Origin: Helicostylum pulchrum | Lineage: Eukaryota > Mucoromycota > Mucoromycetes > Mucorales > Mucoraceae | Length of the DNA stretch: 64,000 nt | Assembly (NCBI GenBank): GCA_025677825.1 | Contig: JAIXMO010000019.1 | Location: forward strand, 434,001-498,000 | Direction of reading: 5' to 3' | In this document: positions 12,310 through 57,595 of the stretch, piece after piece | Layout of the letters: the number at the start of each line of letters is the position of its first letter | Position numbering within the stretch: position 1 is the first letter of the stretch | Translations under genes and position numbers: made by a program | The notes under the pieces: model-generated | What the model saw: the letters and a program-made list of their open reading frames with translations, nothing else | The model's database searches: none | Told to the model about the DNA's origin: nothing

Positions 12310-12342
<33 letters not shown>

Positions 12343-29583: not shown

Positions 29584-32500
29584 ATGTCATTAAAAGATAT
29601 TAGATATGTGGTTGGAATAGGTTATTATTTACGCGTCAAAACATTATTAATAGCAAGAGTGACCATCTGACATCATTTTTTCTAGATTTTGGCGCTGTCT
29701 CTTCTGGTGTATCGATCGCTCATACAGAAGAACCTTCTGTAAAATACACTGTGAACGAATGGTAAATATTGACTTGATTTTAAATAAATTAAATAAACGT
29801 TGTCCTAAACTAAATTAATTTATTAGGGAAGAGAAAAATAAGGATGAGAAAGAAAAGTCGAATATTAAAGGTCCCAAACAACTCCTTACATCTATTTTAT
29901 ACAAAGCTGATGACACTATAATCTGTGGCCTTTCTAATACTGCGAATGATAAAGCGTCTAGAAAAGAAGGAGATGTTTACATTAATAATATTAAGCAGTA
30001 TATCCTGAACATTGACCAAGCAAATGAAGAACTCGGACAAAAGAAGGAAGGTTTGACCATTCAAAAGGTTGTTACTGATTACTTGAAAACCCTCCATGCA
30101 TTGGCTATAAAGTGTTTAAATAATCAGGAGGACTTTCGCAATAGTGATAAATTTAAAAAAGATTTCAAGCCCGAAAATATTCGTTATTGTTTATCTTGCC
30201 CCAAGTCTCAGAAGGACTTTATGGAGCAATGTTTTGTTGCCGCTGGTATCATTGAACTGGATGACCTTAGTTATCGACTCGTATGTGTGACTGAATCCGA
30301 AGCTTCTGCTTACTACTGTCTTAGTTTAGATAGAATCAAATCCAAAATTGTGCATGACCAAGAATACTTTGTCTGTGATATTGGCCATTGTTCTTTTGGT
30401 ATGTCGAAGATCTGCGCTGATACCACTGAAATCCTAAGTAGAGTAAACTTGATTTCTGAAGTACCGGGACAAGGATCAATGAACTTGGAAAATAGCTTTA
30501 GAAAATACCTGAATGAAAATAAGATCGACTTGAATTTAAATCAAAGTATTATTGGCACTTTAATGGAAAAGTTCCTGGATGAAATTAAGGTAATTACATT
30601 TTTTATTCGCAATTATGTATTCATATATGTTCCAACTATGAAATCTTTTTAAAGCACTCGTTTAGTGTGACTCAGGTTGGACTAACCGAAGAAGAGGAAA
30701 TGGAATTGGAAGCTAAGAAAAAAAAAGAGTCAAGTAATGACGATGAAGATGAAGATGAAGATGATGACGACGAAGACTTTGATTTAGAATTTTATGATGA
30801 TGAAAACTGTGACGATGAAGAAGGCGAACCCCAAGAAGCTATCGAAACCTCAGTTAAAGGTCTTGGAGTTGGAAATGGAGAAGAAATCCGATACGTCTTT
30901 GATGTTCAAGATATTAGAGGCAATACTGTTAAAATTACTGACAATGACTTGAATGTGCATGTTTTTTCGCCCTATATTAAATCCATCACTGATTATATTT
31001 CGGCCAAGGATGAAGAAAATAAGAACGAAGCCAAAATTTTTCTTTCGGGAAATTACAGTTCAGATGCTAACTTTTATGAAAAATTAGCGAATGTAAACGA
31101 CGGGAAGTTCGAGTACTTTCTCGCTTTTGTTGATGATACCAACGGAGTAGATGTAGTCTCCTTAGGTGCCGTTTCTTTCGGATTAAGATTCCATGACTTG
31201 CAAACACCTTTTTTTAGACATAAAACATGGCTAAGTCAGGACGAAATAACTGCAAAAAAAGACAAAGAAAAAAGAGAAGAAGTAAGAAACGAAAAATACC
31301 AAGCAAGAAAGGAAAAACCAATTGACTTCATTGTTGGTATCGGTAAATAACAAATAAACAATATTAATTATTTTACGCTGATATTTTCTATTATAAACCT
31401 TATTAGATTTTGGTACAACATTTTCTGGATGCTCTTATGCCGATTGTAGAGGAGTTGAGGTCCACGAGAATATTCCCATTAAGACTCTGAAGTCAGGATG
31501 GTAATATTAACTATCAAACCTAATTTAAACATATAAATATTTAACTTGTTTTTTCTTATAGGCCAGGTGGGGACAACATTGGTTTCGGAAAAACCCCAAC
31601 GTTGATGATGTATGACAAAAAAATGAAGGCGAAGTTTTGGGGTCAAGCAGCAAAGCAAAAAGTCGGCACGTATACGGACCTTACTCTTTTGGGGAACTTT
31701 AAGTTATTCCTGTCTCCTAAATCTGTTGCAACTTACTATGGTATTAACAATAAAGAAATTAAAAGGCTTGCCCACGAAAATAGTTTCAGTAATACTGTTT
31801 CAACTGAAGACCGAGTTCGCACTGCTGAACCTGACGAAAATAAAAAGTACCAAACAAAGAAAGATCATGCTTACGATGCCGTTGATGCTGTCGATATTAT
31901 CTCTGATTATCTCAGAGTCTTCCACGACCACGCAATTAAAAAAATTCTCAAAGCTGAAACGAAGAAAATTTATTTGGGTCTTTTTGGAAGAGCTACAAAG
32001 GAAGACTTTAATATTCGCTATGTTCTTACTGTCCCTGCCATGTGGTCCGCATCTGCTAAAGAAACTATGGCTCAAGCTTCTATTGACGCTGGTATTATTA
32101 CTAAAGACGAACTACATAATCTCCTCATTATAACTGAACCTGAAGCTGCCGCTCTCTTTTGTGATAAGACATTTTCGGAATGTATTCGTGATCCTAAACA
32201 CCCTAAAGCTGAATCTAATTTTGTCGTATGTGATGCCGGTGGTGGTACAGTCGATTTAGTCACCTTTAAATTAGAAACTGATGAAGAAACTGATAAACCG
32301 AAGATCTGTCAAGTTGGTGAGGGTTCTGGTGACACTTGTGGCTCCTCTTATCTTGACAGCAAGTTTAAGGATTATCTGTTGAAATTTTACAAGGACATGG
32401 ATATTGACGCTAATTTATCCAACACCGATTTTAACTCTGTTATGGACCATTTTATTAATGTTACAAAGGTAGGATATAATGTATTTATATAAATTAATGG

Positions 32501-33544
32501 TATACTTATACAAAATTAGGTCAAATTCTGCTCGAATTCTGAAAGAGATGGCTTTACTGATATCAAGTTGCCCGCTCAACGCCCCGTACTAAATGTTCCG
32601 GAAAAAGATGCGGCTAAAAAATATACACTCAGAGATTCAAATACGACACTCCGAGTGAAGGATGCTGTTATGAAGACGGAAATTTTTGATCCAATCATTG
32701 TAAACATTCTAAATCTAATTGACAAGCAAATAAAACAAGCTGAAGAAAGTGGGTGTCCAATTAAAAGTATTGTGCTGATTGGCGGATTTTCAAGAAATCC
32801 CTATTTAAAACAGCGCGTCATTGACCATTATAATTCCGCGTACAAAGTGGGTGTTCCTAACGAAGGTGTTGCAGCTATTTCTAACGGTGCGGTATCTTAC
32901 GGCTTAAATCCTCGTATGGTTTCCACGAAAATGGCGGGTCAGTCCCTCGCTTTAGAAGTGCAAGCGCCATTTGAAACGAAAAATGAATATATGAATAAAG
33001 AAGTACCTGGTCCCAATGGAGAAAAATTCGTTAGAAATCGCTTAGAATACTTTGTTAAGAAAACGGATCGTATTGACGGCGAGGAATACCATAGAACTGT
33101 CAGTGTAAACTACCCTCAAAATGTCTTGATAGGTAAAATGCAAGTCAAGTTACAATACGTATCATACTTACTCACATTTCTTTTTACATTCTAGCTATTT
33201 TTTCTTGTGACTTTAAAGAAAAAGAATATGATGACGATAAAAATTGGAGATATGTAAGCAATAAACATAACAAAATTATGGAAGAAACAATCGAATTACC
33301 TGAAGTTGAAGGAATCAGAAAAGGTACAAATATCCAGTTCGACGTTACCCTTAGAATGGATCACATTGGCGTCACCGTCATAATCGAATGCTTAAATTCT
33401 TCTATGAACAACGAGATCGAAAAAATAACTAAACTTCCAAGTTTAAGAATAGTGCGTAAATGTAATTTTGTTGTATTCAGAAACAAAAAACCTTTGATTC
33501 AGTATTCTTTAGCAAAATCGCAATTTGCCTATGGTTCAAGTTAG
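29584..33544 (+). CDS. Array gene A1: tandem HSPA12-like protein, inactive-active modules
   Basis: Exons 29584-29620, 29686-29761, 29827-30589, 30655-31342, 31407-31500, 31562-32468, 32520-33132 and 33195-33544 join to 1,175 aa. Two Hsp70/actin-fold ATPase modules lie in tandem. In module 1 the phosphate-1 loop is DFGAVSSG (residues 13-20, no Thr pair) and the phosphate-2 loop is DIGHCSFGMSK (about 222), without GGGT or the following Asp, so it is probably unable to hydrolyse ATP. An acidic insert (about 315-350) follows. Module 2 is canonical: DFGTTFSG (522-529), DAGGGTVDL (777-785) and the adenosine motif LIGGFSRNPYLKQR (about 941). It ends in a small beta-rich domain encoded by a 350-nt exon. 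There is no Hsp70 peptide-binding domain, signal peptide or membrane segment, as in HSPA12A/B. The two-module layout was not recognised as a described family; its function is unknown. Confidence 0.9.
30735..30834 (+). other. Acidic linker of A1
   Basis: Encodes an almost uninterrupted Asp/Glu stretch in module 1, at the position where A2 has its SDEED repeats. Confidence 0.8.
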
Positions 33545-33765
33545 ATAACGCCGATTGGCCCATAAAAATAAAGTGCAAAATAAATAAAATACAGTTGTAT
33601 AAAAAACTCTCGCATTCATTGAGGCCTACGGCTGCATTATTTTTTGAAAAATATTTTTTATCCGAAACTCTTCGCAATGTGACTGTAGATAATGCAAACC
33701 CCTTTACTTATTGTAGTTAAAAGTAAAAAAAATCAAAAAAAATGAGGGTTCAACTATAATAAATC

Positions 33766-35970: not shown

Positions 35971-38900
35971 ATGGCTTTCAGATATCACCAGTATCAATTC
36001 ATTATTAGCATTGGTAAGAAAGTGAAAGAAAAATAGTTACAAAAAAATTTAGTTAATAAAAATACGCGTTATTGTACAGATTTTGGAACCACTTTCTCAG
36101 GAACTTGTTTTTCTAATACATCTGGTTTATCAACCCAGGCTTTGAACGAAGCAGAATATCCGAAAATTACTCAAGTCACCACTTGGTAATTACCTCTGTT
36201 TTTTTTATAACGAAGTTAAAGCGCGCCACCGGCTAACAACAATCCTCTTTTTTTTTAGGCCCGAGCAATCTGCAGATGAAAATAAAACGCCTTCAATCAC
36301 AATTTATGATAGAAACTTTCACTTACTATACTGGGGTAAAGCCGCTCGAACTCGTATAGAAAATGGTTTAAAACCTGGCGAAATTGTTAAAGAACGTTTC
36401 AAGTTAGAACTTCCTTCGTCTGTTCCTCAAAAAGGCGCCATTTATAAAACAAACAACACCAAAAAAGCAGAACATGACAATATGAGAGCAACTATTGATT
36501 ATTTCAGAGAAATTTTCGATCATACTGTTAGCGCCATTAAAGACGAATTCGGCTTTACTGAAAAAACAGTCGAAAAGAACGATATTCGTTTTGTTATTAC
36601 TGTGCCTGCTCAATGGAATGACGTACAAAGAACTATTATGCGTACTGTATCTAAAGAAGCTGGTTTGATTACTGATGACGACCATGAAAACCGTTTATTG
36701 ATTATTAACGAATCTTCTGCCGCTACCTTACATTGTGAGCAAAGCGAAACTGACATGGATGACCTAAAACCTGGAGATAAATATGTCATTTGCGACGCTG
36801 GTGGGGGTACAGTAGATCTTGCAACATTTGAGTCGGTAGAAAAGGTTACTGGTGATCCTGCTGATAGTTTCCGTCGTTGCCAGTTGACTGCCGATAGTGG
36901 AGATAGATGTGGTTCTACATTCATAGATAAAGCGTTGCGTAAACTCCTTACGTGGTATTGTTATGGAGATGAAAATACCAAAGTAGGAGAAGAAAAAGAA
37001 AAAGAGCGTGATAAATTATTTTCTCGCGCAATTTGCATATTCATAAACGAAACTAAGGTATAGATATAAAATACAAATTCGATAACTTTTCTAATTTTTT
37101 AATTCATAGGTACAATTTGGCAAACGATCGGAGGATTTTAAATTTCCTAAATGTAATCATGATGAAGACGAATACATTGTTCCAGATGAAGAAGTTGATG
37201 AAGGAGATCCTAATGACGAACAATGTGCTATTTGTAAATACGAAGACTTCAAATTCATACACAAAAAAAATTTTGGAGACCGTAAGTTTTCATATTATTA
37301 AAATGCGTTACAATGGGATATTTGATTCATCAATATTTTTGTATAGCTGTCATAATAACTTTAGAAGATGCTATAATTGTACCCAAACTGCGCATACGTT
37401 CGAATAATCTTATCAAAAATAAAATTGAAAAAGGTTCCTGCAGAATAACAATTCCGTATCTTGTCATCGCAAAAATAGTATTCGATCCAGTCATTGATGC
37501 TACGATAGAACTTATAAATCGTCAGATAAAGAAGGCCAACGGTGGTATTTCGCGTACATATCTAGTAGGAGGTTTCGGTGGCTCGCCTTATTTGCGAAAG
37601 AAAATCCTCAAAAAATTTTATAAAAAAGGTACTGACTTCCCGAATTCCGAGTTTGAATCAGGCCGATTAATCACTGACACTATTGGTAATTCTGCCGCTA
37701 TGCGAGGAGCCATGGTATATGGTATCGATGGTAGTCGAAGAAAGCCTCAAACTGATGTTGTCGAAACCCCATTTGACTGCGCTTCTACTGATAAATATAA
37801 TACTCTAATTTGTTTAGGTAAGGCTTGGTTTTTTTTTATTCCCATTAGATTTTTTTTTTTTTAATTATATCCCCATACAGATATTGGATACCTTACAACA
37901 TCGTGTTCTTACAGAAATTTAAAAAATGAATCTGATGAAATGACTGATATTACCGATTGGTAATGTATTCTTTTTTATTTTTCTTTATTATATCACATGT
38001 AAATTAATAAGGATGTACTATAATAGGCCCGGTTTAGATGGAGGCGATCTTATGATCCCTACAGCAAAAGAAACAGTCGACAATGTAACAAGTTGGGGCG
38101 CTCAAGTTGATCAGCTTATTGGTTCAGGTCATAATGATCACAATAATCGTATTGCCTCTGATCATACTAAATTCATTTCCCCCAGCAAGCTAATGTCCAT
38201 CGCCAAAGCTGATTTAAGACACTATCTTTGCGAGTATCTTAAACTTGTACTTGGTCATGTTCACAAATCAGTTGCCAAAGCTAATTATGAACTCTCAGAC
38301 AATAACAAGTACAGATATGTCATTACTATGGAAAACTGTTATCAATTCTTTAACAACAAGTCTGAAATGCGTTATATTGCTCAATTAGCAGGCATTATTT
38401 CGAAAGAAGATCCGTTTGGGCGTCTTTTATTAGTTAGTCGCGATAATGCTGCTGCTATGTATAATGAAAGGAAATACTTTTCAGACAAGAATGCCAACAC
38501 TAGCCATGTTTTACAAATCAATATTTACAACGGTGTATGTAACTTATCATTAATGGAACATACCAAAATTAGTGGTACCGATATAGATTCTAAAGATACC
38601 GACGAAAACAAGAACAAAACTAAACTTTTTAGAAATGTTAGAAGTGTAAGGTCTGCTACGTTTGATTTCGACTTTATCGGTAGACTCGTTTCTAAATTGA
38701 ATAATTACATATCAACGAACACTTGTGTTGAGTGCACTAAAAGCCATGGTACCTATAGTCCAACCTACTATGCCGAACTTCGAAGAGGCTTCCTCGAGCA
38801 CATAAAGGTTTGCCTATGATAAAATTTTCCATGTTCGTGACGCTAACTTTTTTCTCTCCCTCTCTCTCTTTCCTGTAATAGACAACATTAAACTTTGATA

Positions 38901-40019
38901 ATAATGACGAGACTCAGAAAATTTCCACCACTGATGCTGGTTGTTGTATTGCCTCTATTAAAGTTTATGACCTCTTGGAATATGTATTTCGTCCTGCTGC
39001 AAAAGACTTTGCATCTGAAATAAATCGCTTTGCAACTCAAACAGATATGACCCAACGTTTCATTTATGACAACATCCTTTTATCCGGCTTCTTGTTGGAA
39101 GCAAAAGAAACTAACTACGAATTTTTGGAACGTATCGTTATTAGCAACATTTCTGAAATCATGGGTATCCAAACTGACTACATTAAACGTTCAGCTGATA
39201 ATGGAAAGGAAGCACTTTTAGGTGCCGCAATTTACGGTAACTGCCCTACATATTTCACTGAAAGAATCGCAAGAACCTCCTATGCTGTTAACATTCGTGC
39301 GTATAAAATTAAAGAATTTGAAGAACAAGCTAAAAAAGAAATCAAAGACGAAAAAAGCAAAAAACAGAAAGATTTGAAAAAAAGAATTTACGCTGTAGAA
39401 TCTGCTTATGGTCATGTCAATGAAGATGAAAAAGTCGACTTGTTTTATCAATCTCCTCATAACCCCTCCATGTATACGACAGATTTTGACCGTAAAGATG
39501 ATGATTTGACATATCTTATTCGTCGAGGTGATAAAATTTTAGAAAAAAACCAAAAGAAGGGTATCTTTAAAAAGTTTTATGCTAAAGAAGACTGCATTGT
39601 TTATGCTAGTAAGTAAATTACCACTTTCTGTAATATTCACACGACTAACTATATTTTTTATTTTTACAGCTATTTATTCTTCCGATGCAGATGAGTTGCC
39701 TCAACATGGAATCAAGACAGGTAACTGTCAATTCAGAAAGATTCATCAATTTGAGCTCTATGTGAAATGTGATGAAGACGATCCAACGACAGCTGGCGAC
39801 GAATGTCGTCTTCACTTCGATATCCGTCTAATCCCTGATAATAATGAAGCAAAATTCGAAGCTAGAGTTGGCTCAAGATTAGGGAAGAAGATCCCCGAAT
39901 ACCGTTTCAGAGACGAATTCTTAGTGGCAAATATTTACGATGATAGACAACTTATTGAAGTTGGTAATTTAACTATTGATGAAGTTGTTTCGGGGTTAGG
40001 TGATGGTGAATCGTCTTAA
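35971..40019 (+). CDS. Array gene B1: tandem HSPA12-like protein, active-inactive modules
   Basis: Exons 35971-36013, 36080-36185, 36259-37057, 37110-37281, 37347-37817, 37881-37959, 38027-38807, 38882-39608 and 39670-40019 join to 1,175 aa. Module 1 is canonical: DFGTTFSG (15-22), DAGGGTVDLATF (229-240) and LVGGFGGSPYLRKK. A separate exon (residues about 317-374) adds a CxH ... CxxC insert (CNH and CAIC). Module 2 is degenerate: the phosphate-1 position reads DIGYLTTS (531-538), the phosphate-2 position reads QINIYNGVCNLSLM (about 720) with no Asp-Gly-Gly, and a conserved CVEC-x3-H follows near 788. It ends in a 350-nt exon encoding a small beta-rich domain. The order is the reverse of A1. 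No signal peptide or membrane helix is present. Function unknown; an A/B pair is inferred. Confidence 0.9.
39396..39702 (+). repeat. Identical tract, copy 1 (gene-conversion tract in B1)
   Basis: This 307 bp segment covers the end of exon 8, the whole intron 39609-39669 and the start of exon 9. It matches 50476-50782 base for base, while flanking exon sequence differs at many positions and the other introns do not align. Confidence 0.9.
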
Positions 40020-41295: not shown

Positions 41296-44200
41296 ATGAC
41301 TTTAAGAAATAAAAAATATGTTGTGGGAATAGGTTAGTATTTACTCCAAAAAAAAAGACTTCATATGATGAATGATAATCTAACAGTGTTATTTAGATTT
41401 TGGTGCTATTTCTTCTGGCCTCTCAATTGCTCATGTAGATAGACCTCATTCGAAATTTACAGTGAATAAATGGTTAGTTTTATCTTATTTTAAGCAAAAA
41501 AAACCCCCCCTTTTTAAATGAAGTGATTTTTAGGGACGGTGAATCAATTAAAAGTGAATCAATTAAAAGTGACCCCAAACAGTTCCTTACATCTATCTTA
41601 TATAAATCTAATGGGGAAATACATTGTGGCATTTCTAAAGATAACAATGTATTCAGCGGAGCGGTTGAACATGAAGGAGATGTTTATATTGAAAATATTA
41701 AACAATATACTCTTAATGAGGATGAAGCAAATATAGAACTCGAACAAAAGATGGAAGAATTGACCATTAAAAAGGTTGTTGCTGATTACTTGAAGCAATT
41801 TCATGCATTGGCTATAAAGCGTTTAAGAGAACAAAAAGACTTTCGCAATAGTTATAACTTTGAACAAGATTTTAAGCTCGAAAATCTCGGCTATTGTCTA
41901 TCTTGTCCTACCTCTTTAAATGGTTTCTTTGCTGACTGTTTTGTGAAAGCTGGAATTATTACCGAGAAAACTAATCTCGTTTTTGTATCTGAAGCTGAAG
42001 CTACTGCTTTTCATTGTCTTAGTCTAGATAGACTGACGACCAAAATAGTTCCAGATCAAACTTATTTTGTCTATGATATTGGCCATAGCTCCTTTCGTGT
42101 TTCAAAGATTGAAGCGGATTCGACCGAAAACTTTAGCGAAGTAAAATTTATCTCTGAAGAACAAAAAGGCTCAATGGTGTTAGAAGAGAGCTTTAAAGAT
42201 TACTTAATTAAAAATATGTCCGATTTGAATTTAAATGAAAGAACTATTAGCATTTTAGTCGAAAATTTTGTGAAGGAATTTAAGGTAACCAATTTCTTTT
42301 TTTAGATATACTTGTATGTATCCTGTACTAACTGCTACCTCAGTTTTCTTTTCTAGTTACCCCAGACGGAGATGAAGTCAAGATAGACAGTATTAATAAT
42401 CTACAAGAAAACGAAGAAGGCAATGATGGAGAAGGCAGTGATGAAGACGGCAGTGATGACGAAGACAGCGATGAAGCAGACAGCGATGAAGAAGACAGCG
42501 ACGAAGAAGACAGCGACGAAGAAGACAGCGACGAAGAAGACAGCGACGAAGAAGAAAGTGAAGAAGAAGAAAGTTTTGGTGAAGACAGTAAAAGTAGCAA
42601 AGGTTTAGTCTTAATATTGCAAGAAGATCCCACTAAAGCCGGACAAGAGCACGAAGAAGAAGAAGTTTCGTCACTTTTCCATGTTACCGATGATAATGGT
42701 GTTTCCATTAAAATCAACATCACTGCTGAAGATTTAGGAAAACATGTATTCTCACCGTATATTGATTATCTTGTTGAAAAAATTATGAAAGTTGATCGTG
42801 ATAATAAAAATAGTACGAAAATTTTCTTGTCAGGAAGATTCTGCTCAGATCCAAATTTCGTTGAAAAATTAAATGCCCAAAACAATGGAAAATTTGCGCA
42901 ATTTGTTTCTTATATTGAAGACACAAATATCGATGCTGTCTCTTTAGGTGCGGTTTCTTCTGGATTAAAAGCTACAAGAATACAGATTCCGCTTTTTAGT
43001 GAAGAAAACTCCATGTCTCCTGGCCCAGGATCACAAAAAAATATAAGTAGTGAAAATCTCAGAACCAAACCCATGTCTAAAGACGAAGAAGACGAAAAAA
43101 TAAAGAAGTTTGACTTTATTGTTGGTATTGGTAGGTGATCTAAATATGAGGGTAGATAGTATATGCTAATTTTCACCTTTCTAAACATTATTAGATTTTG
43201 GTACAACTTTTACCGGGTGTTCATATGCTAATCCAAACGATCCCTACGTTAAAGATCTTAAAGCTATTCATACAATCGAAACAGGCTGGTAATATTAAAT
43301 TATTGTATCTGTTTATATAATACATCTAATTTCTACATACAATTATGGTAGGCCTGGAGGAAATGCTATTTCATACGGAAAAACGCCTACATTACTAATG
43401 TACGATAAAAATATGAAGCCAAAGCTCTGGGGCCAAGAGGCAAAGCAAAATACCCATCGTTACAAAGACCTTACTCTTTTAGGTAACTTCAAGTTGTTCC
43501 TTTCTCCTGAAGCTGTTGATGCACAGTATGGTCAAGCAAATGAGGACATTTTTAAAATCAAAGAGGCCAATAGTTTTGCTCCACGTAGTGATACAAGTCA
43601 AACGCAATATAACATGAAGAAAGATAAAATTCCTAAAAACATAGATGCTGTCCAGGTTATTGCTGACTACCTTAAAGAAGTTAAAGAACACGTAGTTCGA
43701 CATATTGTTGCTGAAAATAAATTCAAGAAGGAGGGTAAAAAAGGCTTTAATCTGTTCTCAAAACGGTCTGAAAATGTTCCCAAAATCCAATTCGTTCTTA
43801 CTGTCCCTGCCATGTGGACTACACCTGCTAGAGAAACTATGGTAAAAGCCGCTATCAAAGCTACTATCATTACAAAAGATGAAGTAGACGATCTTCGTAT
43901 TATCAGCGAACCTGAAGCGGCTGCTCTCTTTTGTGAAAAGAAATACTCGGACCTTGTTCGGGACCCTGAAAATCCTGATGCTGAATCTAATTTCATTGTT
44001 TGTGATGCTGGTGGGGGAACAGTGGATTTGGTTACTTTCCGTCTGACGCGTAATAAGGAAAGTGGTGACCCAATGATTTGTCAAATTGGTAGTGGTATTG
44101 GTGATACTTGTGGATCGACCTATGTCGATAGAGCATTCAAGGAATACTTGTTGAAATTTTACAGAGATATTGGTTTAGAAGTTAAAGACACTGATAAAAC

Positions 44201-45400
44201 TTTTGACTCTGTTATGGACGACTTTATTTCTAACATAAAGGTAATTGATAGATATATTTATATGTATATGAAAGTCTTTTATTCATGAGTTTTTAAATCT
44301 ATAGTGTCCCTTCCAGCCAGATTCTGCTAATGATAAATTCTGTTTAGTCAAATTACCTGCTGAGCGCAGAATAACCAATATTCCAAACACAAAAGAAGCG
44401 AAACAATATACGTTGGTAGAAAGGAATACAATGCTCAAAATTAAACATGCAGATATAAAAGAAAAAATCTTTGATCCTATTATTACAAAAATTTTGGCAC
44501 TTATTCAGCAACAACTCATCCAAGCTTCCGACAAGAAACATAACATCGAAGCCATCAAAGCCATCTTGTTAGTCGGCGGCTTTTCACGTAATCTTTACTT
44601 GCAACAGCGTATCCAGGAAGAGTATAGAGATCAGTATGACGTGAAAATTCCTGAGGAAGGTGTTGCTGCTATCTCCAAAGGTGCGGTCTCTTATGGTTTA
44701 AAACCCCGTTTGATTTCTAGTAAAATTGCTGGTCAGTCTGTTGCTTTAGAAGTACGAACACCTTTTAAAAAAAAAGAAGACGACCGTTTGGATAAGAAAG
44801 TAGACCGTTTAGGTAGTAAATTAGACATTGATGATAAGAATGAAGATGGCGAAATCGTAACGGATTTGTACTCGAAAAACCGCTTAGAATATTTTGTCCG
44901 TCAGTCTAACGATTTAACAGGTAAAAGTCTTACACTCTTCAATAGAACAGTAACTGTAGATTATCCCAACAATGCTGTGATAGGTAATACATTTTCTAAG
45001 TAGCTTGTTTCAAATGCATGTATATAATATTAAATTTTTCTATACTTCAGCTGTTTTTGCCTGTGATTTTAAGGAAGAAGAAGATAAAGAAAGCTGGAAA
45101 TATGTAAGCAGAAGACATAACAAGATTCTGGAAGAAGTGATTAAATTGCCAGAAGTCGAAGGAATTGAAAAAGGTACTCTGATTCGTTTTAACGTTGGTC
45201 TTCAAATGGATTATATTGGTGCTACCGTTACTATTGAATGTCAAGACAGACTTATCAATGGAAAGATCAAAGAAATGACTGAAGGAGTTGAAACATCTTT
45301 GAAAGTAATTCGTAAATGTGATCTCATTGTAGTGAAAAACAAAAAGACTTTGGTAGAATATTCTTTAGCAAAAAATGCATTCTCGTTGAGCAGTAAATAA
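41296..45400 (+). CDS. Array gene A2: tandem HSPA12-like protein, inactive-active modules
   Basis: Exons 41296-41332, 41397-41472, 41534-42284, 42344-43130, 43195-43288, 43352-44240, 44305-44983 and 45051-45400 join to 1,220 aa. Exon lengths 37, 76, 94 and 350 nt are the same as in A1. Module 1 is degenerate: DFGAISSG (13-20) and DIGHSSFRVSK (219-229). The linker holds a repeated SDEED acidic tract. Module 2 is canonical: DFGTTFTG (551-558), DAGGGTVDLVTF (800-811) and LVGGFSRNLYLQQR. The acceptor 42343 was chosen because the next AG (42355) puts a stop codon in frame, and because the resulting FSFLVT matches HSFSVT of A1. Domain order and loss of phosphate-binding residues in module 1 match A1, so the pattern is inherited and not recent decay. 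Function unknown. Confidence 0.9.
42434..42555 (+). repeat. 15-nt tandem repeat coding for SDEED units
   Basis: A GACAGCGACGAAGAA-type unit is repeated about seven times within an A2 exon, the 3' units being exact and the 5' ones diverged. It is always in frame and encodes an acidic Ser-Asp-Glu linker rich in potential casein kinase 2 sites. Confidence 0.9.
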
Positions 45401-45704
45401 AACCTTTTTTGGACCTATCATAAACAGTACCACCAAGATTTTTCAAATGTTTGTGGCTAACGATGCTTCATACGTGTTTGTTATTTAAAAAATTAATTTT
45501 TGTATTTGTAGTCTGAAAATTGCATTTGAATAGTGGCACCTTTTTTAACGGATTTAATATACAAACAAATGAACAAAAAAAAAATCGATGGACTTTATTA
45601 TTGTATTCTGCAAAAGGAGAGATTGGAAGAGGGGCGCTATTATGCACGAAGTAATACATTTTATGATGGATTGGTAAGGACATGGGATACGAATAGATAC
45701 AAAG

Positions 45705-46236
45705 AAAATTTAGATTTCGGAACCACTTCCCCAGGAACTTGTTATTCTGATACTCCCGCTACTCCATCGAAAGTCCGAACGACCTCTTTTTTTACTTATT
45801 CTTTTTGTAACAAAGCTAAAATTTCCACTTTTATTAAGCCGGAACATTGGCGTAGCAGGAGCCGTGTTTTCTACCCTACTGAAAAATAGCGCTCAATTAT
45901 GCCTAACCTATCTTTTTACTTTGGAATTTAATTTCGGTGCACTGTTGTAAAAAAAAATACATTAACTCTTCCAGTGCAAATGGGTTACCTCAACATAGAA
46001 TCACGACAAATAATCTTGATTTAAGAAAGATTCACCAATTTTAACTCTATGTGAAACGTGATGAAGACGATCCAATGGCAGATATTATTGAACCTCGTCT
46101 TCACCTCTATATTCGTCTTATCCCTGATAATAACGAGGATAAATTTGAAGCTAGAACTGGTTAAAGACTAAGAAAAAAGATCCTTAAATGCCATTTCAGA
46201 GATGAATTCTTGGTAGTTAGCAGATATTTACGATAA
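45705..46236 (+). pseudogene. Type B pseudogene, internally deleted
   Basis: The start reads LDFGTTSPGTCYSDTPA, matching B1/B2 exon 2 (DFGTTFSGTCFS). After about 230 bp the sequence jumps to the final exon: 45975-46236 aligns with the last B exon (CAxxxRLPQH-like start, RKIHQF, KRDEDDP, IRLIPDNNE, FRDEFLV), with in-frame stops (at 46042 and 46162) and small frameshifts. Everything between exon 2 and the last exon is missing, as is exon 1. It is a decayed member of the array. Confidence 0.8.
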
Positions 46237-46965: not shown

Positions 46966-47137
46966 GAGAGATGTAAAGAAGTAAAGTTATGTATCATGTC
47001 GTACTTTGGCTCGGTTGGTAACACCTTACACAAGTGAGGTACTAAAATAAAAGCTACAAGATCTGAATATCTACATTTAATTATATTTCTTTTTCTTTTT
47101 CTTTTTTCTTTTTTCTTTTTCTATTTAAATTTAAAAA

Positions 47138-50100
47138 ATGGCTTTCAGATATCACAAGTACGGAATCATTATTAGTATCGGTAAGAGAAGCAAATGCCTG
47201 TAAAGAAAAAAAATTAAAGCTTGTTATCCTATAGACTTTGGCACGACATTTTCGGGAACATGCTTTTCTGTTACTACAGAACTATCTACTGCAGAACTTT
47301 TAGATAAAAACTATCCTGATATTACGGTAGTTACAAGTTGGTAAATTTATTCATGAAATTAAACTAAGAAAGTGTCACTTACAACTTTTCTTTTTTTTTA
47401 GGCCACAGCAGACAAAAGTTGAAAACAAAACACCCTCCATCAACATTTATGATAGAAACTTCCATTTGTTGCACTGGGGTGAAGCTGCTCGAATATATAT
47501 TAAAAAGGGCGGCGTAAAGCCGGGTCAAATTATTAAAGAAAGATTCAAGTTGGAACTTCCTTCATCTGTTCCACAAAAAGGTGCCATTTATAAAACAAAC
47601 AACGCCAAAAAAACAGAACATGACAATATGAGAGCAACTATTGACTATTTCAGAGAAATCTTTGATCATACCGTTAGTACAATCCAAAAAGATAGTGGTG
47701 GTTTTGGCCTAGTTTCAGTTGAAAAGGAGAATATTCGTTTTGTTATTACTGTGCCTGCTCAGTGGAACGACGTACAAAGAGCAATCATGCGTACTGTGGC
47801 TAAAGAATCCGGTTTAATTACTGATGGAGACCACGAGAATCGTTTATTGATTATTAATGAATCTTCTGCTGCTACCTTACACTGTGAGCAACAGAAAACT
47901 GGCATGGATGACCTAAAACCAGGCGAAAAATATATTATTTGTGACGCAGGCGGTGGTACAGTAGATATTGCAACCTTTGAGTCAGTAGAAAAAGTTACTG
48001 GCGATCCTACCGATAGTTTTCGTCGTTGTCAATTAACGGCTGACAGTGGTGAGAAATGTGGTTCTACATTTATAGATGTAAAAATGCGTGAGCTCCTTAC
48101 ACTTTTTTGTTACGGTGATGAACCATGTAAAGATAAAGAAGAAGAAAAGGCACGCGAAAAACTATTTTCTCCTGTTATTGACATGTTTATCCGCGATATC
48201 AAGGTAAAAATTTGCAAATTCAGTAAAATAACAGCTCTAACTATTTAATTTATAGCCAGTTTTTGGTAAACGTTCAAGGGAGTTTAAATTCCCTGATTGT
48301 AAGCACGCCAAACGTTTGAAGACACATACAGGTCCCATTTCCAAAGGGCCCATTGATGAAGGGAACCATAACGATAGACAATGCATTGTTTGTAAAGCAG
48401 AAGATTTTAAATATATGACTGAACCAAATTTTGGAGACCGTAAGCTTTTTTTTTTGTAATGGCGTTACAGCAGTCATTAATTTATATACTCTTTTCTATA
48501 GCTATCATTGTGGTATTGAGAGATGCTATTATTGTACCAGAATTGAAATTACGTTTGCCTGAAGGTGTTAAGTACGAACGTACCGGTGGTATTTGCGAAT
48601 TGACGATTCCTTATGATATCATACAGACACAAGTATTCGAAGAAGTTACAAAACGTACATTGACCCTGATAGATAGACAGATCAAAAAAGCCAATTATGA
48701 TATCAAACGTACGTATTTGGTTGGTGGCTTCGGAAACTCCCCGTATTTACAAAAGAGAATCCTTAAAGCCTTCCCTGTAAAGAGCACTTCGTTTCCCAAC
48801 AAGCAGTATAAAATCGGTACATTAATCACCGACGATAACGGCAATTCCGCTGCAATGAGAGGTGCCATGGTGTACGGTATTGATGGTAGCAGAAGAAAAC
48901 CTCAAACTGATGTTGTCGAAAAAAAGTTTGTTGATGAATATAATACACTAATTTGCTTAGGTAAATAGTCGATTTTTAGTATATGTACCTGAGAACAATT
49001 CTAACTTTTTTTTCTAATCGTACAGATATTGGATACCTTTCTACATCATGCTCGTACAGGAATTTGGGAATTACATCTGATAAGATGACCGAAATCACTA
49101 ATTGGTATTGTATTGCACTTTTTGTTACTATGCTATATTTAACCTAATGTGAATATATTATAGGCCCGGTCTAGAAAAACCCCATTTTATGATCCCTACT
49201 GCAAAAGAAACGGATAAAGAAGGTCAAACAACTTGGGGTGCCGAAGTTAAACAGCCTATCGACCCTGACCACGAAAAACTCATTGCTCCCAGTCAATTAA
49301 TGTCTATTGTTAAGGCCGACTTAAGAGAATATATTTGTGATTACTTGAAACTTGTACTTGGTCATGTTCACGAAACAATTGCCGAAGCCAATCCAGAACT
49401 CTCGAACAAGGACGGGTACAGATATGTCATTACTATGGAAAACTGTTATCAGTTTTTCAGCAAGTCCGAAATGCGCTATATTGCTCAATTGGCCGGTATT
49501 ATTTCAAAAAAAGACCCTTTTGAGCGTCTTTTATTAATTGGTCGCGATACTGCAGCTGCCATGTATACCGAAAGAGAACACTTTTCGGGCGTACCTGCTT
49601 ATACTAATCATGTATTACAGATCAATATGTACCACGATATTTGTAGTTTATCATTAATGGAGCATACCAAAATCAGTGGTAATGATATAGATTCTACAGA
49701 TGAGAAAAACACTGGAGTCTTTAGAAATGTTAGAAGTGTTAGATCAGCTACTTTTGACTTTGATTTTATCAGCAGAATTGTTTCTTATTTAAACAGCTAT
49801 GTTTCAACAAATGATTGTATTAAGTGTAATGGAAGTCACGGCACATATAGTCCTACCTATTATGCTGAACTCAAGAAAGGCTTCTTGAACTACATTAAGG
49901 TTGGTTATTAATTATGTTATATATATTCGAAATACTAATTACTCCTCCTCTAAAATAGACAAAATTAAACTTTAATAACAATGACGAAACTCAAATTATC
50001 CCTATTACTGACGCTGAGTGTTGTACTGCCTCAATTAAAGTGTATGATCTCTTGGAACATATATTTAGACCTGCAGTTAAAGACTTTGCATCTGAAATAA

Positions 50101-51159
50101 ATCGTTTTGCAACGCAAACCGATATGATGCAACGTTTCAGTTTTGACAAGATCTTTTTATCTGGTACCTTGTTAGAAGCTGAGAAACCTAACTATACATT
50201 TTTGGAGGGTATCGTCATTAACAACATTTCTGAAGTTATGAATATCAAAACTGAATTTATCACTCCTTCAAAGCACAATGGAAAGGAAGCGCTTTTAGGT
50301 GCTGAAATTTACGGTAATCACCCTAAAGATTTTACTGAAAGAGTTGCCAGAACTTCCTATGCTGTTAACGTCCGTGCGTTTGGTCTTAAAAAATTTGAAC
50401 TCAAAGCAAAAAAAAAAATTGAAAAAGAAGTAGCAAGTGAAGACAAAAAAGACTTGAAAAAGAAAATTTACGATATAGAATCTGCTTATGGTCATGTCAA
50501 TGAAGATGAAAAAGTCGACTTGTTTTATCAATCTCCTCATAACCCCTCCATGTATACGACAGATTTTGACCGTAAAGATGATGATTTGACATATCTTATT
50601 CGTCGAGGTGATAAAATTTTAGAAAAAAACCAAAAGAAGGGTATCTTTAAAAAGTTTTATGCTAAAGAAGACTGCATTGTTTATGCTAGTAAGTAAATTA
50701 CCACTTTCTGTAATATTCACACGACTAACTATATTTTTTATTTTTACAGCTATTTATTCTTCCGATGCAGATGAGTTGCCTCGACAAGGAATCAAGACAG
50801 GTAGCTGTCAATTCAGAAAGATTCATCAATTTGAACTCTATGTGAAACGCGATGAAGACGATCCAATGACAGCTGGCGACGAACGTCGTCTTCACTTTGA
50901 TATTCGTCTAATCCCTGATAATAATGAAGCGAAATTCGAAGCCAGAGTTGGTTCAAGATTAGGAAAGAAGATCCCCGAATACCGTTTCAGAGACGAATTC
51001 TTGGTTGCAAATATATATGATGATAGAGAGTTTATTGAAGTTGGTGATTTAACCATCAAAGGGGCTTCAACCACTGATAAAGGTGATTCAACCACTGGTG
51101 AGGGTGTTTCGATCATTGATGAAGCTATTTCCAGGTTAGATATTGCTAAATCGTCATAA
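47138..51159 (+). CDS. Array gene B2: tandem HSPA12-like protein, active-inactive modules
   Basis: Exons 47138-47180, 47235-47340, 47402-48203, 48256-48439, 48502-48960, 49026-49104, 49164-49899, 49959-50688 and 50750-51159 join to 1,182 aa. Exons 1, 2 and 6 (43, 106 and 79 nt) have the same length as in B1. Module 1 is canonical: DFGTTFSG (15-22), DAGGGTVDIATF (231-242) and LVGGFGNSPYLQKR. The Cys/His exon has CKH and CIVC. Module 2 is degenerate: DIGYLSTS (532-539), QINMYHDICSLSLM, then CIKC-x3-H. The C-terminus is longer than in B1, with an added GDSTT/GVSTT-like repeat. From 50476 to 50782 it is identical to B1. A CT tract precedes the start codon. Function unknown. Confidence 0.9.
50476..50782 (+). 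repeat. Identical tract, copy 2 (gene-conversion tract in B2)
   Basis: Partner of 39396-39702. It includes the intron 50689-50749, which is the only intron identical between B1 and B2. Confidence 0.9.
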
Positions 51160-51327
51160 TCACTTATTTTAATGCAAATACAGTAAATAAACATGCAGTG
51201 GTATATATTTTATAACTTCCGCTTGAACTCTTTCGTTTACTTTTTCTCACTTCAATTCAATTAACTCTCATTTTTTCACTAAATACCTCTCTCTTGATGT
51301 ATCACTTTATTAACAACAAAAAAAATA

Positions 51328-52928
51328 CTATTGGCATTTTGTTTCAATAATTGAAGAACCAATTTCTTCGTATTCTTTCTTTGAAATCCATAATTGATTG
51401 AATGTACCTAAAGAAGCTAATATAGAGCCACCTAACCAGCTACTGCTCTTACGTTCGATTTGACTTCCAGCGGCATGTACCTTGACTTTACTCTATTATA
51501 TGGTGTATATTAATTAGTAAATAAACAAATATATATATTAAAAAAATCTCAACTTACACCAGGTACCATCATAGGTAAATCGTTGCTTAATCTTTCCGTA
51601 AATCCAGGGAAAAGAGTATTCCCACCAGTAACTATGACATTATTGAAAAGTAAAGGACGTAAATCGATGTCACATGCACTAATACTATTGAAAACTAATT
51701 GAGAGACACCAACAGAGTGTTGAATTTCATTAGCAGAGACACCCAATGAAGGGATCTTTTGTGATTCTTTTCCAGGTTCAATAGGAGGCTAATATAGAAG
51801 GATTCCATCAATATCCATTTTAGAAAAAAAAACTGTACCTTAACTTACCAAACGAATGTGATGAGGATTAAACATGATTTCTGGTACTCTGTAACGCTCT
51901 GCGCCAAATGCATTATTATATCCATCAGGAAATTCAAAGGGTCTTTGAGGCCTTTGATTCAATAAATGCTCATCATAAGGGAATTCGGAAACTTGTGAAA
52001 CAGATTCCTTATATTCGTGAATAACTCTCTAACAAAAGAAAAGAGATTAGTTCAATTTTTGCCTTTTAAAATAAATAAATAGTAATATTCGAAGCTTACA
52101 GAAATTTGATAATCATCAAAGCTTTTTGTTGTATCAGGTCGTTTACGTAACTGAAGTTGAGGTGCAGCACCAGCAGGAACGGGTTTCTTACTGGCGATTT
52201 TATAAAGAGGTGTTACATCCAATTGTAAGTTTCGTTTAATATAATCTCGAATTTGTTGAGACAAAATATCACCGCCGATCGTTTGATGAAGTACACCCTT
52301 TTTTAAAACATAACCGTCATATACAGGAACAGCACTTGTGGTGCTTCCTCCCGAATCTAAAACTAAACCGGTAGCTCTTCCTACAGAGAAACTTTGTACA
52401 AATGCCAAATTCAATAACAATTTTTTTTGATAAAAAAAAACTGTATCGTATACACTTACGCTGTCATAACTGCATCTTTAGCAACATAAAAAGCAGGTGC
52501 ATCAAACTTTTCAAAGGCTAATTCCATCATTTTTTCACGATTCTCTTGTGTGTTCCAAGCGGGCTCGGTACATAATAAAGGATGTTCAGCAGAATTAACA
52601 TGTAACATGTTGTTATAAGCTGCCTGCCAAATTTGTTCAATGGCATCCCAATCGTGTACAAGTCCATCCTTCATGGGATTTTTAATTTCCATGTTGGGTC
52701 TCCAGGTGTTTAATTTAGCATCACCAATATAATAGTTGTTTTCTTTATCGATACCGTAAGATGTAGGAAACATGGACTTTGGGACATCTTCACCTGCAAA
52801 ACCTACACGTGTTGAAGTTGATCCGATATCAAACACAAGCGCGTTGACTTCATCTAAATAACAAGGTATCAGTATTTGATCACTTTCGTCAAGATTTATT
52901 GTATCATACCTCCTCCGTAAGTGACCAT
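51328..52928 (-). CDS. ARP4: Nuclear actin-related protein 4 (ARP4/BAF53)
   Basis: Exons 52928-52910 (19 nt), 52853-52460, 52391-52100, 52028-51849, 51788-51558 and 51492-51328 join to 426 aa. Seen: [20 protein letters not shown] (the ARP4 start), [39 protein letters not shown] (actin phosphate-2 loop), [34 protein letters not shown] and the ARP4-type end [20 protein letters not shown] followed by KKEYEE. ARP4 is a shared subunit of INO80, SWR1 and NuA4 chromatin complexes, in the nucleus. It lies on the opposite strand within the array of actin-fold ATPases, but is an ordinary single-copy gene of a different family, so the placement may be chance. Confidence 0.95.
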
Positions 52929-53593
52929 AGTTTATATATACTTATGTTACAGAGAACAACAACAAAAAAAGGTCGAAAAAAATGCACTGCAAAAAGAAAA
53001 GGAACAAATTTGACGACAGTCACTTTATGTGTGTGTGTGTTCGGCTAATGAACATGCTGTCAGTGGCCATTATTGCTCTTTTTAGATGGATGACCTCTGC
53101 AGGTACTAATTTCTAAAAATAAAGCGACAGCAATCCCATCCTCAAGATGTGTCACTACTATTATTCTACACGTTCAAAAAAAAAAAAGTAAATAAAACTT
53201 GCAAAGATTATCGAAATGCTTTCGCCTTCTCAACTCCTTTTATTAGAAGCAGTAATTGATATGGCTTCGAATCCAGTTCTAAATACAGCGGACAGTTCAG
53301 GAACGAGGACCTCCGTATTTTGAAACACGTGTTGAACCTGTCAGTGTCTTTGGGAAACAGTACCCAAAAGTTGCTATTCAAAAAAAGCGGGAAGAAAATG
53401 GGTGTAATAGACAAAAGAATATATCTAAGATCATACTTTCTAGTTAAGGTTTTAGTGACACCTTAAATATTTCACAAGTAAAAGGAATATTTTAGCAATC
53501 CCAACCCCTCTTTTGTTCTCTTTTTCTTCTTTCTTTTGTTCTCTCTTTATATATATATATATATATATATATTTACTTTTCAGTTATATAAAA
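52929..53593. other. Spacer between ARP4 and B3
   Basis: About 660 bp. It has a GT microsatellite near 53027-53040, a CT-rich tract (53509-53548) and an (AT)n run (53548-53572) just before B3. No gene recognised. Confidence 0.5.
53548..53572. repeat. (AT)n dinucleotide run upstream of B3
   Basis: About 12 AT units ending some 20 nt before the B3 ATG, where the other array genes have only CT-rich sequence. Confidence 0.85.
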
Positions 53594-56500
53594 ATGGCTT
53601 TTATACCCGCCGAGTATGAAAATATTATTACTATTGGTAATAAAAAATGAATAGACACGAAAGAAAAATACAAAATAACAGACTTTATAGATTTTGGTAC
53701 AATTTCGACGGGAGCAACCCATGCTAATATTGATTTTCTACTAAACCGAGAGCCGACATGTATGGGATTTGAAACTAATGCAATAACTGTTAAAAAATGG
53801 TAAAATTTACTTATAAAATGCAAAAAAGGGAAGATGGATTATGTTATCACTCATAGACTTACGTTTTTTTTTTTTTGTACATAGGCCAGGACAACAACCT
53901 TCAGAAAAAACGCCTTCGATTAGCATTTACGATAGACGACATAATCTATTACACTGGGGTGGCTCGGCCCAAGCATATATTGAAAAAAAAGGTGACCATC
54001 TAAGCCCGTCTTCTCGACTCGTTCGGGAAAAGCTTAAATTAGAATTCCCCTCATCTGTTCCACAAGAAGGCATAGATCATAGAATAAATAACGTTAACAA
54101 GAAAAAATACGATACTATGAGCGCAATTATTGATTATTTTACAAAGATTTTTGATTATACCGTTGACTACATGATGGAAGAGAAAGAACGTAAAAATGAC
54201 AAAATTCGATTTGTTATTACTGTACCTGCTCAATGGACAGGTGCTGAAAGATCCGTGATGCGTAGTATATCTAAGAAAGCGAAATTAATCAATGACCAAG
54301 ACCACGAAAACCGTTTATTGATCATCAATGAATCTCTTGCGGCAGCTTTATATTGTGACTTGGAAATGACTGATTCGCAAGATATGGAACTGGGAGATAA
54401 ATATATTGTTTGTGATGCGGGTGGGTACACTGTAAAGCTTGCGACTTTTGAATGTGTAGAGCGATCTGAAAACGACGACCCTATCGATACTTCCTTTGGT
54501 CACTGTCAATTAACAAACAGCAGTAGTGCTGAATGCGGATCTAACTTTATAGACATGAAAATGTATAAACTCCTTACACGGTTTTTTATAACGGCGAACG
54601 ACCAAAAGATCAAAAAGAAACAGACCGACGTGATAGATTATTTGCACCTGTCATGAAAAAGTTTATAAATGAATATAAAGTAAAAAAAAAAAGAATTGCA
54701 AAAAAAAAAGACTCTCCCTTTTTCTCTAATATATATATATATTTTTTGTAGCCAAGTTTTGGTAAACGTTCAAGCGAATTCGAGTTTCCTAAATGTAACC
54801 ATGACAAAATTTTGAAGACGTGCGCAGATGATATTTATAAATTATCTCTTGGTAAAGAATTCTTTGATGACGATAAATGTATTATCTGCAAGATAGGGGA
54901 TTTTAAACACTTGCATGAACCAGATTTTGGAGACTGTAAAAAAAAAAAATGCTTTTTATATATAATGTATTCGTAATTTTACAACCTGTTTTAATTATTT
55001 TTTTCTATTTTATTTCTGTAGCTTTTGAAGTTAAGTTATCAGATCCTTTTATTGTTCCCGAGCTTAAGCTGTATATACCAGATGCCGTTGACTATAAAAA
55101 AAAAGAAAGCGTTAAATATAACAAAAAAGAAGGTGTTAGATATAGAAAAAAAGAAGGCGTTTGTACACTTGTCGTTCCTTATAGCATTATGCGAACTGAA
55201 GTCTTTAATAGTGTTATCCGGTCTACACTGAACCTAATTGAGCAGCAGATAAAAAAAGTCGATGGGGATGTGAAGCGTATTTATATTGTTGGTGGGTTCG
55301 CAAGCTCTCCGCTCTTGCAAAAGATGATTTTCAGAAGATTTTATGTTAAACGTAATCTCTTTCCTCGTACCAAGTTTCGTATGGGTAGCTTGGTTAATTT
55401 GGGTCTGTTGGCCGTAATGAATGGGGCTATAAAATATGGTACGCATGATGCTAAAGAAGCACCTCGATCTGATATTGTTAAGAATGAGTTTGGATACACG
55501 ACTACAGACGAATATGATGTTTTGATCTGCTTAGGTAAAAAAGTTCTTTTTTTTTATTTTCCATCTGTGTTTTTATTAATCCACAAACTATTTATTTTAC
55601 AGACATTGGATACGAAACAACATCATGTTCTTATAAAGATTTAACAAAAAAATCTGGTAAAATGATTGATATCACTGATTGGTAAATATATATTTATAAA
55701 TGCATGTTATCATATAATCTGATATACGTATTTATTATTAGGCCTGGAAACGAAAAAAGCAATGTCTTTATCCCCACTGCAAAAGAAACAATCAACGGTG
55801 AAACCTTATGGGGTGCTCGTGTTCAAGACCCTTTTAATCGAGACAGCAAAAAACTGATTACGCCAAGTAAACTAATGGCTCTTGTCAAGGCAGATTTTCG
55901 AAAATACCTTTGTCAGTACTTGCAACTTGTGCTGAACCACGTCCACGCGACAATTGGTAGTCTTTCAGACAAGAGCAGGTACAGGTATGTTATCACCACG
56001 GAAAACTGCTACCCGTTCTTTACGGATAAGTCTGAAATGCGTAAAATAGTTGAAAGAGCCGGTATTATCTCTGCAGAAGACTCTGCGCATCGCCTTTTAT
56101 TAATCGGCCGTGATCATGCTTCAGCCATGTACTTTGAAAGGAAATACTTTTTAGAATCTGATGCTTGCACGCATCATTTCTTACAGATTAACATGTACCA
56201 TGATACTTGCTACCTATCGTTGTTTGAATCTATCAAAATTAATCATGCGGGATATCGTAGTAGAAATGTCAGACGGTTAAAGTCGGTTACGTTTGATTTT
56301 GATTTTATTGACAGAGCTGTTCTTCGTTTGAACAGGTATGTAACGGAAAATGTTTGTATTGAATGTAATGATGGTCATGATACGTATTATTCATTTTATT
56401 ATTCAGACCTCAAAAAGGGATTTCTTCATTTTCTAAAGGTTAATAGTCATTTATTTTAAAAAAGTATTCATGTATATTTTTCTAACAAAAAAAAAAAAAA

Positions 56501-57595
56501 AATTAGACAAACGTGGATTTTTCTGAACGTGATAAAATTCAAGGTATTCAAATCACAGAATCTAAATGCTGTACTGCTGTCATAAAAGTATACGACCTTT
56601 TAGAGTACATACTTTGGCCCGCTCTTGAAGATTTAGCGTCAGAAATACATCGTTTTGCCAGGCAAGCAGATATGATGTTACCCCAATTCAATCTCGAAAA
56701 GATATTTTTACTCGGTACTTTAATCGAAACCAAGGGACCTGCTACGTATTCTTTTTTGGAGCTTGCTCTCATGAAAAAGATTTTAGCGCTTACCAATGTT
56801 GATGTTGAACATATTGTACCTTCTGGCGGAAATGAAGCTCTGTTAGGTGCTGCACAGTACGGTATTTGTCCCGAAAGCTTTACGGAACGAGTTTCCAAAC
56901 ACTCTTATGCTGTAAACATTCAAGCCTACGCAATGAAAGAGTTTCAAAAAGAAGATAAAGACGATATTGAAAACAAAAGAAAGAATAGTGGAAATGATTT
57001 AAAGCACGATGTGTATAATATAGAATCTGATTTAGGTGCTGCTGATTTTAAGCAACAGGTAGAGTTGTTTCATCATACAAAGAATTCTGGATTAAATCCA
57101 GATCATTTAAGCGTTTTTGCTCGCCGTGGTGATAAAGTTTTAGAAGACAAGATTTGTAAAACTTTTTTCGCTAAAAGGGATTGTCTTGTCTATGCCAGTA
57201 AAAAGCTTTTTTTTTTTATATGTGGCTATAATTTTTTTAACTCTTTTTTTTTTTTTTTTTTTTTGTAAAAAATAGCTATTTATCGGTCTGAATTGGATGG
57301 TTTACCACAAGACGAATCCGAATTAGATTTTAGCAAGTTTCGAAAGATTCATCGGTTTGAAATCTATTTGAAAGCGGATGAGGATGATCCGACAGTTCAG
57401 AGCGACAACAACTCAACTCGTCTTTCCTTTGATATTAGTTACACTGTTAATAACTATGAAGCTCTATTTGAAGCTCAAATATGTTCAGTTTTAGGTCGAA
57501 AAAAGATACCTGATTTTTATATTAGAGATGAGTTTTTGGTAGCAAATATCTATGATGATAGTCAACATGTTGAAATTGGCGATTTGAAGATTTGA
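53594..57595 (+). CDS. Array gene B3: type B protein with a frameshift, both modules degenerate
   Basis: Exons 53594-53636, 53691-53799, 53885-54679, 54752-54935, 55022-55534, 55603-55681, 55742-56438, 56507-57197 and 57276-57595 follow the B1/B2 pattern, including 43-, 184- and 79-nt exons. Exon 3 lacks exactly one base: the frame breaks at a T6 run (54582-54587), after LLTR. One more T would restore the frame and the same codon count as B1. All other exons are open. Module 1 has lost key residues: DFGTISTG and DAGGYTVKL, where the canonical Gly and Asp are Tyr and Lys. Module 2 is degenerate as in B1/B2 (QINMYHDTCYLSLF). The Cys/His insert is kept (CNH, CIIC). An YRKKEGV-like unit is repeated three times near 55100. 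It may be a young pseudogene, an assembly error, or a fully inactive paralogue. It converges on FNIP with 40 bp between stops. Confidence 0.8.

Follow-up and report, generated by a model that had tools for sequence, protein, structure and literature searches.

What does a protein do with two nucleotide-binding domains (NBDs) of the Hsp70 type in a single chain, and why are two kinds of such protein encoded side by side? The question is raised by an array of genes in the mould Helicostylum pulchrum (Mucorales), which spans positions 29,584 to 57,595 of a 64,000-nucleotide stretch of contig JAIXMO010000019.1, referred to here as the window. The genes are of two types, A and B, and the proteins of both have the order NBD1-NBD2-C-terminal domain (CTD); module 1 is an NBD alone and the CTD comes only after module 2. 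Judged by its motifs, one NBD of each protein keeps what is needed for ATP and the other is degenerate, and the order of the two is opposite in A and B. With a probability of roughly one half, we propose that A and B are lineage-specific classes of tandem-NBD HSPA12-like proteins, in which an active ATPase would be regulated by a built-in pseudo-ATPase, and that A and B probably cooperate. The label HSPA12-like is taken from the source names of single-module homologues, not from the sequences of human HSPA12A/B. Four genes and their parts are as follows.

29584..33544, plus strand: gene A1, 8 exons, 1,168 aa; degenerate NBD, canonical NBD, CTD; open spliced model
29584..31314, plus strand: A1 module 1, degenerate NBD with an acidic insert; phosphate-2 motif VCDIGHCSFGMSKI; adenosine GG gone (FLSGNYSSD)
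31315..33544, plus strand: A1 module 2, canonical NBD and C-terminal beta-domain
35971..40019, plus strand: gene B1, 9 exons, 1,175 aa; canonical NBD, degenerate NBD, CTD
35971..37786, plus strand: B1 module 1, canonical NBD
37347..37817, plus strand: B1 exon 5, one open exon that runs across from module 1 into module 2
37787..40019, plus strand: B1 module 2, degenerate NBD and CTD; DIGYLTTS and INIYNGVCN replace the ATP motifs
41296..45400, plus strand: gene A2, 8 exons, 1,220 aa; degenerate NBD, canonical NBD, CTD; open spliced model
47138..51159, plus strand: gene B2, 9 exons, 1,182 aa; canonical NBD, degenerate NBD, CTD

How far does the split between canonical and degenerate NBDs extend? 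Motifs were tallied in 51 database proteins (28 A and 23 B), the four window genes and 18 single-module homologues, which make 128 module rows. They come from a pool of 197 proteins, 75 of them of at least 800 aa; P0002 (1,853 aa), P0003, P0006 (which is B2), P0148, P0150, P0194 and truncated models were among those left out. The adenosine GG is present in 30/30 rows of A module 2 and 25/25 rows of B module 1, against 0/30 rows of A module 1 and 0/24 rows of B module 2. The phosphate-2 GG is found in 25/30 rows of A module 2 and 24/24 rows of B module 1, against 1/30 and 0/25 rows of A module 1 and B module 2, respectively. Single-module proteins have both motifs in every row (18/18 each). Over the phosphate-1, phosphate-2 and adenosine motifs taken together, A module 2 and B module 1 carry the NBD set and A module 1 and B module 2 do not. 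An earlier note on this DNA had described two complete ATPase modules per protein; this has to be given up, as one NBD is degenerate at the nucleotide motifs and module 1 is without a CTD.

Are the degenerate modules simply decaying? Between B1 and B2 the ratio of nonsynonymous to synonymous divergence (dN/dS) is 0.20 for the degenerate NBD of module 2 and 0.185 for module 1, and between A1 and A2 it is 0.34 for module 1 and 0.26 for module 2; the values (Nei-Gojobori method with Jukes-Cantor correction) are rough, several dS being above 1. Against other loci the NBDs give 0.215-0.56, with no consistent difference between canonical and degenerate ones, in comparisons that used tblastn pieces and may contain some intron. 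Since their ratios are similar to those of the canonical modules, the degenerate modules are not decaying but are under purifying selection. The highest ratios (0.56, 0.52 and, in the C-terminal part, 0.74) belong to a broken-looking A copy elsewhere in the genome (C87:402-406 kb).

The two modules of a chain are homologous in profile comparison, with an E-value (E) of 1.8e-42 for A and 1.1e-17 for B, and the four module types and the single-module proteins are all homologous to one another as five groups. The C-terminal part of single-module proteins aligns with A module 2 and B module 2 only, and the profile of B module 2 matches single-module HSPA12-like proteins at E 4.5e-29 (hhalign). The Pfam profile PF00012 is above its cut-off for A1 and B1, where the matched stretch is the canonical module, and it matches 16/24 B proteins and 28/29 A proteins at E<=0.01. 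Whole-A and whole-B profiles match Hsp70s, with the best stretches in A module 2 and B module 1 (best 60 of 120 and best 60 of 113 matches). The NBDs have the Hsp70 fold, within the Hsp70 superfamily and HSPA12-like, and the view of the earlier note that tandem Hsp70/actin-fold modules occur here in two alternating types is borne out. A one-sequence search of PDB with A2 module 2 returned nothing at E<=1. The fold searches covered mainly residues 7-508 of B1 and 515-986 of A1 and barely the other parts, and a family missing from their matches is not thereby excluded. A1 matches reach residue 1150-1151 against the NBD plus substrate-binding domain (SBD) chains 2v7y (root-mean-square deviation, rmsd, 20.1 Å) and 7odi (8.9 Å), and a few B1 rows reach 1121-1142, a barely covered part.

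A single exon crosses the boundary between the modules not only in B1 but also in A1 (exon 4, 30676-31342), A2 (exon 4, 42344-43130) and B2 (exon 5, 48502-48960), and each locus is therefore one gene and not two. A1, B1, A2 and B2 can all be spliced into an unbroken reading frame through GT-AG introns of 51-86 bp, and the models of A1, B1 and B2 agree with deposited ones. EDC94DRAFT_694350 of H. pulchrum is identical to B1 over 1,175 aa, the partial EDC94DRAFT_609376 is identical to B2 over 1,148 aa, and EDC94DRAFT_609368 matches A1 at 99.4% over 1,175 aa, differing by 7 additional residues at one splice acceptor. No deposited model of A2 from the same strain was among the proteins listed; A2 matches Mucor flavus 002447 at 73% over 99% of its length.

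The intron sites of A and B are in keeping with common descent. Every module starts with a mini-exon that carries the phosphate-1 loop, with an intron on either side in identical phases; a third intron has the same place in all four module types, and a fourth, in the CTD, is common to A and B. The third site is read through in the single-module open reading frames (ORFs) L050, L060 and L061 of the H. pulchrum genome, and the fourth in L060. The plus-strand ORF of L057 ends exactly at the third site and may carry that intron, which need not be private to A and B. L057 itself (C80:122500-132400), a double gene of diverged B-like type, has a single-module HSPA12-like gene nearby and lies on the same contig as the array.

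Then how might such proteins work? In the reading that we propose, one NBD of each chain would be the ATP switch, and the other, with most ATP-handling motifs gone, would be a pseudo-ATPase that docks on the live NBD and sets it, by clamping or by sensing. In A it is the live NBD that lies next to the C-terminal beta domain, which is substrate-binding-like, and the ATP state of this NBD would be coupled to the CTD directly; in B the degenerate NBD adjoins the CTD, and the ATP state would have to reach it through that NBD. A may then bind clients in an ATP-gated manner, and B, with an ATPase placed in front, would bind them irrespective of nucleotide. A and B would work together, and two things speak for this, their linkage and their joint retention. 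The regulation in cis is modelled on known systems. Hsp110 and Ssz1 have an NBD with altered nucleotide use and govern Hsp70 in trans; both kinds are among the fold matches. In Hsp70-Hsp110 and in Ssz1 of the ribosome-associated complex a live Hsp70 NBD is governed by a related atypical NBD as we suppose here, but the two are separate proteins, while A and B each hold them in one chain. Tandem mammalian hexokinase, of the fold shared by acetate and sugar kinases, Hsp70 and actin, also has one inactive half, although it is a sugar kinase of another family.

A more ambitious version, in which A and B form one machine of four NBDs, each live NBD engaging the degenerate NBD of the partner, would make them a heteromeric chaperone or switch of mirror-image layout, invented in the Mucoraceae/Backusella lineage and multiplied in arrays; we regard it as rather unlikely. 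Pseudo-enzymes fused to live paralogues illustrate how dead domains gain regulatory jobs. Here both come from the same superfamily, in mirror-image order in two often-linked gene types at least as old as what Backusella and Mucor share, and further tandem duplications are seen elsewhere. An interaction of A with B would mean a naturally occurring Hsp70/pseudo-Hsp70 system with covalent wiring, and the HSPA12-like families of early-diverging fungi would gain a first role that can be put to the test.

How old and how widespread are the two types? Full-length relatives of both A and B occur, among the matches listed, in Helicostylum, Thamnidium, several Mucor species, Parasitella and Backusella. 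The lists hold the best 120 of 453 homologues for B1 and the best 120 of 145 for A2, from 8,000 scored candidates each, and 15/15 for B1 module 2; they speak for presence and carry no claim that A or B is absent from other fungi. Trees were built from 81 rows (366 columns) and 37 rows (356 columns) of the motif tally. A module 1, B module 1 and B module 2 each form a single clade with Backusella at the base, and the A and B types therefore probably predate the Backusella split. A module 1 and A module 2 fall on one side of the best 37-row tree (support 41/18; 81/49 in the 81-row tree). Fusion before the split of A and B, separate duplications and a shifted module frame were weighed as origins.

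The earlier note suggested a survey for adjacent A and B genes, and among the matches listed such pairs do turn up, as read from locus numbers and not from the DNA of the other species. M. flavus 002446, 002447 and 002448 are neighbouring numbers of both types (its genome, and that of H. pulchrum KT1b, are reported in PMC11385716); in the tree 002446 goes with B2 (95/54; with 002387, 88/31), 002447 with A2 (100/94, 100/99) and 002448 with B1 (99/85, 100/99). A and B are also neighbours in M. saturninus (012672, 012673) and two numbers apart in H. pulchrum KT1b (001502, 001504), and in M. mucedo and Thamnidium models of both are on what is apparently the same contig. In the H. pulchrum genome one further B and A lie head to head at C87:184.3-194.4 kb. 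A and B are thus apparently often close together in related moulds. More copies are listed for Helicostylum, Thamnidium, M. flavus, M. mucedo and M. saturninus than for species of the circinelloides group; that the copy-rich species are linked with cold growth is a guess.

Several observations weigh against the proposed reading. A module 1 has remnants with which it may still bind some nucleotide: 11/24 rows show a phosphate-1-like D-x-G-[TS]-[TS], 27/30 the first aspartate of phosphate-2 and 16/30 the glutamate of connect-1. The exact DAGGGTVD is found only in 20/30 rows of A module 2 and 13/24 rows of B module 1, and module 2 is eroded in certain A copies of M. flavus and H. pulchrum KT1b (DAGAQTV, DVGAQTV); some of the proteins may therefore be without a working ATPase. 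The CTD matches Hsp70 SBDs at a high rmsd of 8.7-20 Å, and the predicted model of A1 has a predicted template modelling score (pTM) of 0.55, at which the packing of domains is unreliable. In the genome C95 has only a B and C101 only an A as double-module type. The clade of A module 2 is weak (48/8, 73/47), with long branches flagged, and the trees leave the order of the module types undecided over six groupings, the five alternatives having p 0.23-0.45 in the approximately unbiased (AU) test on 37 rows.

There is a further question of concern, whether the array reflects cooperation at all or only the way in which it grew. The later part of the array and the traces of exchange are the following.

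39396..39702, plus strand: stretch of 307 bp in B1, intron included, identical to 50476-50782 of B2; the remainder has diverged
45943..46227, plus strand: B relic, the last part of a B gene (62% over 95 aa to the corresponding part of B1, E 5e-29); internal stop
53594..57595, plus strand: gene B3, B-type; frame broken in module 1; phosphate-2 altered (DAGGYTVK)

Five full-length or nearly full-length genes and one or two relics had been claimed. A1, B1, A2, B2 and the B relic stand. In B3 the B exons are recognisable throughout (about 53.6-57.6 kb), and the frame shifts inside module 1 near 54.58 kb; its dN/dS of 0.20-0.26 against B1 and B2 shows that it was long constrained and was broken recently, or in the assembly. 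The A relic between A2 and B2 is unconfirmed, the best A match in the intergenic stretches having E 0.13. A phosphate-1-like scrap at 45707-45754 matches B1 at E 0.008, and an A1 match over 45611-45751 has E 0.14; a short string near 46.9 kb that by eye resembles an A C-terminus was not counted as a relic. The synonymous divergence (dS) is 1.31 for A1-A2 over the whole gene; for B1-B2 it is 1.23 in module 1, 0.85 in the module-2 NBD, 0.26 in the C-terminal part and 0.81 overall. Given the identity across an intron and the C-terminal dS of 0.26 against 1.23 in module 1, the C-terminal end of B1 and B2 was probably homogenised by gene conversion. Growth of the array by tandem duplication is supported. 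The earlier view that it grew as A-B units is possible, fitting the module-1 dS values and the one short stretch alike between the A1-B1 and A2-B2 intergenic regions (76% over 101 bp); the dS of A1-A2 and B1-B2 agree only outside the apparently homogenised parts.

Such a history would also suit a family under birth and death, expanding in some Mucoraceae, in which A and B are functionally unrelated and linked merely through tandem duplication. The relic, the broken copies and the gene conversion within the array all fit it, as do the runs of A-only locus numbers in M. saturninus (003039-003041, 012743-012745) and the genome of H. pulchrum, which has at least 6 A and at least 6 B loci (B3 counted) plus two A fragments, some of them broken. 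It sits less easily with the presence of both types from Backusella to Helicostylum and with their neighbouring locus numbers in three species, and we consider it quite possible, if doubtful.

Could the degenerate modules have a job of their own? They might be sensors that bind another nucleotide, a metal or a protein ligand and do not regulate the live NBD. B module 2 conserves a motif set of its own, DIGY and YVITMENCY, together with Cys/His residues, and exon 4 of B1 (37110-37281) carries a B-specific insert in module 1 with C...CxxC, a possible metal site, kept in 18-19 of the 22 rows that have residues there. The C...CxxC is missing, however, from 6/24 rows (Parasitella, three circinelloides-group rows, Backusella and Thamnidium P0027), and this explanation seems improbable. 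That two adjacent genes were read as one is scarcely credible: some deposited models are mainly of the second module (P0198, 662 aa; P0199, 588 aa, partial; P0141, 671 aa; P0144, 724 aa), the A2 linker contains methionines, and P0141 starts in the apparent linker and could be a real single-module protein, but P0198 and P0199 begin within the last conserved motif of module 1 and are thus truncated inside it, P0144 by eye includes the module 1 end, full-length models stand under many different locus-tag prefixes, module 1 has no CTD of its own, and the bridging exon of all four genes rules the split out there.

How do A and B, in the reading of a live ATPase with a built-in pseudo-ATPase, compare with other members of the family? 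HSPA12A, HSPA12B and the fungal single-module HSPA12-like proteins (about 650-740 aa; P0098 and P0103 are deposited as Heat shock 70 kDa protein 12A) share the NBD motifs and the C-terminal part of module 2. They have one NBD per protein, while A and B have two homologous ones, one of them degenerate. Human HSPA12A/B are described in PMC2266713 as the most diverged Hsp70 group, with homologues only in vertebrates among the genomes examined there. Known proteins of the HSPA12 type had been said to have one module, and the double-module form had seemed a first; this fails because of tandems in Rhizophagus, in two basidiomycetes and in P0192. Rhizophagus P0100 and P0097 (973 and 979 aa) are NBD-NBD-CTD as in A and B, but both NBDs are canonical; their halves are 47% and 43% identical and, among the rows compared, more alike than either is to A or B modules, which makes theirs a separate duplication. 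P0192, a JGI protein, has a degenerate and then a canonical NBD as in A, and its halves, 72% identical, go back to a more recent duplication of their own. P0031 (Pseudohyphozyma) and P0034 (Microbotryomycetes) each have two HSPA12-like modules in one predicted protein, both reaching the C-terminal part of the profile and with canonical phosphate-2 and adenosine motifs; they may be fusions of neighbouring genes in the prediction. For P0192, P0031 and P0034 too, the nearest of the rows compared is the other half or a row of the same lineage, so that these count as separate duplications. In Backusella P0194, a further tandem, the first module is degenerate and the second half is nearest to single-module proteins. 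No study of these paired double-module proteins was found among the 6-20 top-ranked papers per listing of an open-access library, in line with the earlier note. The fold was already known; what remains unusual is that one NBD is canonical and the other degenerate, that two often-linked types have them in opposite order, and that this split is old.

Other genes of the window are of different kinds. An actin-family gene, putatively the ARP4 of the earlier note, lies between B2 and B3 on the minus strand (52456-52941; PF00022, E 9e-49). Upstream of the array a ubiquitin hydrolase gene (UCH, 12299-15457, minus strand) is next to a TRIP12-like gene (17271-21299, plus strand), whose HECT match is slightly below its cut-off.

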